NCBI GenBank assembly: GCA_021812735.1
Contig: JAKAMV010000009.1
Location: 1-37,155, forward strand
Length of the DNA stretch: 37,155 bases
Source: Chloroflexota bacterium
GTDB taxonomy: Bacteria; Chloroflexota; Limnocylindria; Limnocylindrales; CSP1-4
Direction of reading: 5' to 3'
Shown here: positions 30,837 through 30,960 of the stretch, piece by piece
Layout of the letters: the number at the start of each line of letters is the position of its first letter
How positions within the stretch are numbered: position 1 is the first letter of the stretch
Translations under genes and position numbers: made by a program
The notes under the pieces: generated by a model
What the model was told of the DNA's origin: nothing
Seen by the model: the letters and a program-made list of their open reading frames with translations, nothing else
Database searches by the model: none

Positions 30837-30866
30837 TGGACAAGTCGGGATCGGATCGCGTAGAGT
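30837..30866 (+). promoter_or_regulatory. Promoter of the cysteine leader and sulfate assimilation operon
   Basis: TGGACA (5 of 6), an 18-bp spacer and TAGAGT (4 of 6) predict a transcription start near 30873, only about 4 nt before the leader-peptide ATG at 30877. Between this promoter and the ftsH repeats (30662-30836) I see no gene or clear site. Confidence 0.6.
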
Positions 30867-30876
30867 CAGAGCCCTC

Positions 30877-30960
30877 ATGAGCGAGCTCCGTCATCTGATG
30901 CGTTGCGCGTGTACCTGTCGCCGGCGAGTGTCGGCCGGGTGCGAGCGCGCCACCATCTAG
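30877..30960 (+). CDS. Cysteine-rich leader peptide (27 residues) of the sulfate assimilation operon
   Basis: A short ORF begins about 10 nt after the -10 box and ends in TAG 142 nt before the first operon gene. It encodes M-S-E-L-R-H-L-M-R-C-A-C-T-C-R-R-R-V-S-A then G-C-E-R-A-T-I, with cysteines at 10, 12, 14 and 22 (15 percent Cys, against well under 1 percent in the neighbouring proteins). There is no Shine-Dalgarno sequence, consistent with leaderless initiation; an internal ATG at codon 8 would give the same Cys block. Polycysteine leader peptides that attenuate sulfur operons are known in mycobacteria. Here the Cys codons precede alternative RNA stems, so translation speed through them could report Cys-tRNA charging. 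Coding status is inferred from context, not from homology. Confidence 0.7.
   Translation: MSELRHLMRCACTCRRRVSAGCERATI

Follow-up and report, generated by a model that had tools for sequence, protein, structure and literature searches.

Leaders containing Cys codons were predicted in mycobacteria, Propionibacterium acnes and Bifidobacterium longum by Seliverstov et al. (2005), whose excerpted text describes them as being without obvious terminators (PMC1262725). Ribosomes were found on a leaderless Cys-rich small ORF (sORF) of M. smegmatis (Shell et al. 2015, in the excerpt of PMC4633059), and contiguous Cys codons in the leaderless sORFs of this species regulate downstream translation via cysteine-dependent elongation, as stated in the available passages of PMC9031893 and also of PMC13236596 and PMC9094748. 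In Streptomyces lividans, metL is described in the excerpted text of PMC8079986 as leaderless, as containing the motif CMCRRMC and as lying upstream of metNIQ. The available portion of PMC4833913 mentions the Chloroflexi solely as a group represented by too few genomes, and literature searches of open-licence papers naming Chloroflexi or Chloroflexota gave no report of Cys leaders in this phylum among the matches listed.

Here we analyze a window of 37,155 nucleotides, which is the whole stretch of DNA examined, from a Chloroflexota genome. Like the mycobacterial polycysteine leaderless sORF attenuators, as these are presented in papers citing Canestrari et al. (2020), the window contains a short leaderless-looking ORF with clustered Cys codons that stands first in a sulfur/cysteine operon and is not followed by an intrinsic terminator. 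Unlike them, it belongs to the Chloroflexota, its Cys cluster lies in the middle of the ORF, it matches no family model and it is known here from sequence. It also resembles the leaderless metL of S. lividans, with its C-x-C-R-R-x-C stretch; metL differs in having been filed by its authors, in the same excerpt of PMC8079986, under methionine, and in belonging to other genes in another phylum. The window ORF probably encodes the leader peptide of an attenuator that works through ribosomes and responds to cysteine, a reading to which we assign a probability of about 0.78, and in which we infer the transcription start, translation, stalling and the direction of regulation.

Results

A putative leader ORF upstream of TauE-cysH-cysD-cysN

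The window lies on contig C62 (239,888 nt, including 276 N) of the 2.68-Mb assembly G000. The original prediction had described a promoter, a short spacing and a 27-codon ORF with four Cys at 30837-30960, with TauE-cysH-cysD-cysN downstream, and all of these elements were confirmed (Table 1). The ORF reads ATG AGC GAG CTC CGT CAT CTG ATG CGT TGC GCG TGT ACC TGT CGC CGG CGA ... TAG; as would be expected of an attenuator, it is enriched in codons for the end product of the pathway and is first in the operon. Its ATG lies 10 nt after the -10 hexamer of the promoter, and the RNA would therefore have few nucleotides 5' of the ATG. No Pfam or NCBIfam match to the ORF was found, and Rfam gave no match up to E 5 in 30300-32300, so that a riboswitch or T-box is not indicated there. 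No intrinsic terminator was found between the leader and TauE, and in this respect the window copy is unlike classical trp-type attenuators. The nearest named records to cysH are Chloroflexi metagenome bins (L008, 76% identical, and L009, 69% identical), which fits the earlier guess that the lineage belongs to the Chloroflexota.

Table 1. Features of the putative leader and its operon, with positions in the window.
Feature	Position	Strand	Basis or remark
Sigma-70-like promoter TGGACA-18-TAGAGT	30837..30866	+	9/12 matches; sole site in 30500-31300; mean 0.0 in 50 shuffles
Leader ORF MSELRHLMRCACTCRRRVSAGCERATI, near-leaderless	30877..30960	+	27 aa from ATG to TAG; residues 10, 12, 14, 22 are Cys
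Cys codons 10, 12, 14 (TGC, TGT, TGT), proposed sensor	30904..30918	+	Read from sequence
Cys codon 22 (TGC)	30940..30942	+	Folding model: a stall here leaves the TauE SD closed
Proposed switch strand GAG-U-GUCGGCCGG	30926..30938	+	Pairs with 30988-30999 if ribosome at Cys10 or Cys12 (model)
Proposed shared strand CCGGCCGACCUC	30988..30999	+	3' half 30994-30999 masks TauE SD (model)
C-rich, G-poor stretch, possible Rho entry	30961..31150	+	C minus G at 97.6th-98.8th percentile of the contig's 150-nt stretches
TauE Shine-Dalgarno (SD) GAGG	31094..31097	+	5 nt before GTG 31103; paired in unstalled fold
TauE/SafE family membrane protein, first structural gene	31103..32164	+	PF01925 5.5e-22; start codon inferred from SD
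cysH, APS/PAPS reductase	32169..32918	+	NF002537 260.8 bits (cut-off 154), TIGR02055 256.6 (cut-off 235.3)
cysD, sulfate adenylyltransferase small subunit	32915..33934	+	TIGR02039 433.1 bits (cut-off 396.6)
cysN, sulfate adenylyltransferase large subunit	33939..35261	+	TIGR02034 532.7 bits (cut-off 336.1)
ftsH, divergent upstream neighbor	28579..30561	-	PF01434 1.1e-71, PF00004 2.9e-46; start codon inferred

Chance expectation in the contig

Among the 2720 ATG or GTG ORFs of 10 to 45 codons in the contig, nested starts being counted, 48 contain four or more Cys, and CxCxC also occurs in three of the 48, two of which start with ATG and one, elsewhere in the contig, with GTG. When only the 555 ATG ORFs of 15 to 35 codons are taken, CxCxC occurs solely in the window ORF, with two nested starts. 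By the strict promoter rule the window ORF is the sole short ORF of the contig that starts 4 to 12 nt after a -10, and widening the spacer to 15-19 adds one more, which has no Cys. A promoter cut-off of 8/12 yields eight short ORFs, with four Cys in the window ORF alone. Cut-offs of 7/12 and 6/12 yield 34 and 119, and ORFs that are equally or more densely Cys-rich are then present, for example VHCAGCRRCGPSRPA; because such ORFs occur at lower promoter scores, the case for the leader depends on the combination of features.

Cys accounts for 0.66% of the 7420 codons in the 17 neighboring ORFs taken as genes, which gives P = 2.5e-5 for at least four Cys in 26 codons, and base composition predicts 2.6% Cys, which gives P = 0.004; these P values are not unbiased, since the ORF had been selected post hoc by the model that made the original prediction. 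Enrichment of the TGT codon (p 0.16 for the window leader; 4/7 and p 0.03 for the two leaders of this genome together) was not taken as an argument.

Predicted folding of the window copy

Folding predicts that the TauE SD is paired with 30994-30999 when no ribosome is present or when a ribosome is at the stop. When Cys10 or Cys12 occupies the A site, 30926-28 is predicted to pair with 30997-99 and 30930-38 with 30988-96, and the modeled openness of the SD is 0.30 (Cys10), 0.45 (Cys12) and 0.00 (stop). Over nine settings of the ribosome footprint and the 3' end, the openness ranged from 0.22 to 0.48 at Cys10 and from 0.08 to 0.50 at Cys12; at Cys14 it was under 0.2 in six of the nine, and at Cys22 it was at most 0.04 in all nine. 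The mean gain over Cys10, Cys12 and Cys14 was matched by 2/300 shuffles for the SD and 5/300 for the 16-nt start region, and by 11/300 and 9/300, respectively, when the leader part alone was shuffled. An earlier shuffle statistic, chosen after the folding result had been seen, gave 3/400 and 5/400 for the SD and 0/400 for the 16 nt. Opening the 16-nt start region costs 6.5 kcal/mol with a ribosome at Cys10, 9.5 kcal/mol at Cys12 and 12.1 kcal/mol at the stop, compared with 8.7 kcal/mol when no ribosome is present; given this last value, the switch is partial in the model.

A second leader in the same genome

A second near-leaderless ORF, MSHQPRACVCMCRRPRRPEDGV, is encoded on the minus strand of contig C52 at 14534-14466 (L199, 5535-5467), with its ATG 7 nt after CATACT. 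It reads ATG AGT CAT CAG CCG CGC GCC TGC GTG TGT ATG TGT CGG CGG CCC CGC CGT ... TGA and has a design in common with the window leader: MS, a few residues, and then CxCxCRR. This leader was located by following a prediction of the attenuator hypothesis, which is the main ground for our confidence, and with it both of the sulfate-assimilation loci located in the genome are headed by a Cys leader. When the window ORF was used as a protein query against the genome, this second leader was not retrieved, and the resemblance is thus confined to a short motif; the strict promoter rule finds no site at the C52 leader.

The gene that follows has NIR_SIR domains; among NCBIfam models it scores best against nitrite and sulfite reductases, in every case below cut-off. 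Its start at ATG 5265 of L199 is favored by an SD and by P0004, its closest relative at 83% identity, which is encoded on a 35-kb contig and begins MQPTPAP. A siroheme-synthase-type gene (NAD_binding_7, TP_methylase) lies downstream, and a signal peptidase gene lies divergently upstream. Between the leader and the sir-type gene there is an intrinsic terminator (L199, 5415-5386) with a 12-pair stem, compared with a shuffle mean of 0.1. In equilibrium folding the terminator has P 0.99 wherever the ribosome is placed, so that stalling gives no relief, and a 9-bp pairing of the leader with the terminator arm at Cys8, a candidate kinetic antiterminator, was not above chance (72/300 shuffles). Unlike in classical trp-type attenuators, no competing antiterminator better than shuffles was found for the C52 copy.

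A family search with the sir of another family matched this genome only (1/107). In the class, the sir-type gene found one further strong match, in G161, and two more at E 4e-4 and 7e-4; G161 is the closest genome of the class in which sir is well matched, and no Cys-rich short ORF lies in the approximately 790 nt before the gene there. Plasmid records contain sir relatives of under 60% identity only.

Conservation in relatives

A cysH match was found in six of the 177 genomes of the class, this genome included, and in none of the seven relatives of the same genus. Upstream DNA is readable for three relatives of the same family but other genera (G015, G030 and G123), the contigs of G026 and G016 beginning too late, and the window ORF is kept in none of the three. 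In G015, TAGTAT is followed after 7 nt by the GTG of a different, leaderless-looking ORF, MHLPLCPSLVDCPRVVADRA, which has two Cys; its stop and a possible TauE start share the sequence GTGA. In G030, TAGTAT is followed after 6 nt by a nine-codon GTG ORF that has no Cys, and G123 has a different upstream gene and no leader ORF. Conservation of the ORF and its Cys codons in close relatives, which the original prediction had named as a check on itself, was therefore not borne out in these three.

These loci have further features of their own. The TAGTATA box of G015 (L005:440-541) lies between divergent cysD and TauE, and both sides look leaderless, the plus-side ORF having 20 codons. The cysH of G123 itself is apparently leaderless, with its GTG 7 nt after TACGCT (L066:1443-1458). 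Directly downstream of cysH in G015 and G030 (L005:2656-3156 and L006:2496-3029) there is a gene that, judged by eye from the motif HAHCDIPCGVYD, we take to resemble nickel superoxide dismutase.

Cys leaders elsewhere in the Chloroflexota

Of 400 Chloroflexota genomes, 136 have a cysH match, this one included, and long upstream stretches were obtained for 79 loci from 75 of the 135 other cysH-bearing genomes and for five of its own family. At locus L124, MCLCICPQRGPRRPRG and terminators precede a NIR_SIR gene, with a poor -10. Genome G462 has two different leaders: MRTSPSKCHCCTVPTTGEVQPRHTTDA, with TATACT and a terminator identified by eye, before cysH (L149), and MKLCFRPNCAC, after TTGACA-18-TAAACT and followed by a terminator, before sir (L250). 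At L162:2287-2358, MSIHSTACCMCCDNPGPGGIRAQ and a strong terminator precede a gene for an NMT1-type substrate-binding protein, which suggests that transport is under the same cysteine control. The ORF MMTFGMFCMCMACMCMCCMTTHRAVQHAMAGYR at L163:2951-3052, in the orientation in which cysH is on the plus strand, has seven Cys and precedes a NIR_SIR gene; a script detected one terminator there, and inspection by eye added a second. At C52, L124, L162, L163 and L250, and by eye at L149, a terminator-like hairpin lies between the leader and the structural gene, as in classical trp-type attenuators.

In G298, which belongs to a third family, MPGPHRTCACTCPQPPAARVGGPSAR (L226:3198-3278, minus strand) ends approximately 56 nt before the start of sir and has no terminator. 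It reads RTCACTC, its CACTC being the same as that in the window ORF, and the sir-type gene that it precedes is the best nonself match, at 47%, of the sir-type gene on C52. A TTGACA-17-TACACT promoter lies approximately 45 nt before the ATG, and this leader may consequently not be leaderless. Between families, the leaders of equivalent genes have Cys codons in common and little else; they range from 11 to 37 residues, and the Cys lie near either end.

At 113 loci, from which the window and C52 are excluded, the 519 kb scanned upstream of cysH or sir contain nine sense and zero antisense cases of a Cys-rich ORF combined with both a -10 and a terminator; the nine represent eight distinct places in five families, four of the eight being from family f22. 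Some of the loci overlap, L163 and L235 being one place and L212 and L230 another. Contig C62 has no such combination on either strand. Without the terminator filter there is a modest excess of 36 sense over 22 antisense at the 113 loci. The first, looser scan of 65 cysH loci had given seven sense and four antisense cases of a Cys-rich ORF with a -10, which is weak alone, and later filters gave 17 versus seven and then 23 versus five over 84 loci. Because the filters were shaped by the first conserved leaders, these sense and antisense counts describe the pattern and do not test it. Most of the 29 sir loci have no such leader. The candidates at L150, L212/L230 and L217 looked spurious.

A conserved leader type in family f22

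The leaders of family f22 end in RRRxIDYxRCASCFCS and lie approximately 95 nt ahead of sir-cysH or, at L123, ahead of TauE-sir-cysH. They are present in 25 of the 42 genomes of the family, two of which have two copies (L109, L123, L128, L133, L135, L139 and L169-L195). All 27 copies end in C.C and have at least three Cys, the pattern having been read without requiring Cys; the copies were collected by similarity, and the family members L137, L142 and L143 keep two end Cys. Across 26 distinct leader ends a single codon is used at each of three Cys positions, compared with five codons at an invariant Arg, which suggests that the leader is translated and that its Cys codons are constrained. A hairpin and U run follow the leader in three of six loci inspected.

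The f22-type leader P0001, which precedes sir-cysH, matches two family models of leader peptides below their curated cut-offs: NF042933, the Ms5788A family Cys-rich leader peptide (E 3.8e-5, 23.3 bits, cut-off 45), and NF042934, a putative leader peptide labeled cis_reg_atten (E 3e-5, 23.5 bits, cut-off 27). The window ORF, by comparison, has no match to either up to E 10.

Discussion

We propose the following mechanism for the window copy. Transcription would begin at or just 5' of the ATG, and ribosomes would load on the 5' end of the RNA. When cysteine is plentiful, ribosomes would pass the CACTC cluster and reach the stop, 30988-30999 would pair with the TauE SD, and the operon would be poorly translated. 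When Cys-tRNA is scarce, a ribosome would wait at codon 10 or 12, 30926-30938 would capture 30988-30999, and the SD would be freed, allowing TauE-cysHDN to be expressed. For the C52 copy the terminator would be the natural output. That the output of the window copy is exactly this SD switch, and not a coupling through Rho or by some other route, is a tentative proposal of the folding model, and we place it somewhat under even odds.

The same cysteine leader might instead act through Rho, if stalling in low cysteine alters Rho access to the C-rich spacer and high cysteine allows transcription to be stopped before TauE. Such attenuation has to be considered since the spacer is C-rich and G-poor, ranking near the 98th percentile of the contig for C minus G; the window copy lacks an intrinsic terminator, and Rho was proposed for the mycobacterial cys leaders in the excerpted text of Seliverstov et al. 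(2005; PMC1262725). We consider this output rather unlikely, the SD switch performing better than shuffles and needing no Rho. A more radical alternative dispenses with the sensor altogether: the ORF could be an untranslated or neutral product of a 72% G+C intergenic region, and the promoter would simply serve TauE-cysHDN. The lack of conservation in the three readable relatives, the post hoc choice of the ORF and the other Cys-rich ORFs that appear in the contig at looser promoter cut-offs are all compatible with chance, but it is made improbable by the recurrence of CxCxCRR in the leader of this genome's sir-type gene, by a CACTC leader before sir in another family and by the phylum-wide pattern.

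Two further alternatives accept translation of the ORF and deny that its Cys codons sense cysteine. The leader might merely deliver ribosomes to TauE by coupling or reinitiation, as the overlapping GTGA of the leaderless-looking ORF in G015 would allow; in the window, however, the ORF ends 142 nt before the start of TauE, which has its own SD, and we regard mere delivery as quite improbable. Least probable of all, and by our estimate very much so, is that the ORF encodes a small Cys-rich protein that functions in the pathway through metal or redox binding. CxCxC can bind metal, but the leaders of different families are alike in their Cys codons and little else, as codon sensing would predict, and several of them stand directly before terminators. 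A cysteine-responsive attenuator therefore remains our preferred reading of the window ORF. The original prediction of a cysteine sensor in this lineage is accordingly strengthened by the shared motif in the leader of this genome's own sir-type gene and by the Cys leaders at sulfur genes of other Chloroflexota, and is weakened in that the window ORF is not conserved in the three readable relatives. On the independent origin that it raised as a possibility, the widespread f22-type leader is similar to the Ms5788A leaders of Actinobacteria, and the window ORF fits no model.

Very probably, to judge from sequence comparison, the window leader is a device of a kind familiar from the Actinobacteria, found this time in a different phylum, where a single genome appears to couple it to two output devices. 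A broader reading, which we regard as evenly balanced, is that Cys leaders are a general principle of sulfate assimilation in the Chloroflexota, built from several unrelated leader sequences. One leader design in this genome would then drive both a terminator, at sir, and SD masking, at TauE-cysHDN, and at least one leader type would share ancestry with the actinobacterial Ms5788A leaders, in which case the device would be older or more mobile than the mycobacteria.

Attenuation directed by cysteine had previously been described in mycobacteria and predicted in a few other Actinobacteria. The evidence presented here adds a second phylum, with leaders before sir, cysH, TauE and a substrate-binding-protein gene, and several of the Chloroflexota leaders are accompanied by intrinsic terminators, which are reportedly absent from the mycobacterial ones. 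It makes testable the idea that a single leader design may be wired to transcription or to translation within one cell, and that such sensors may have arisen repeatedly.
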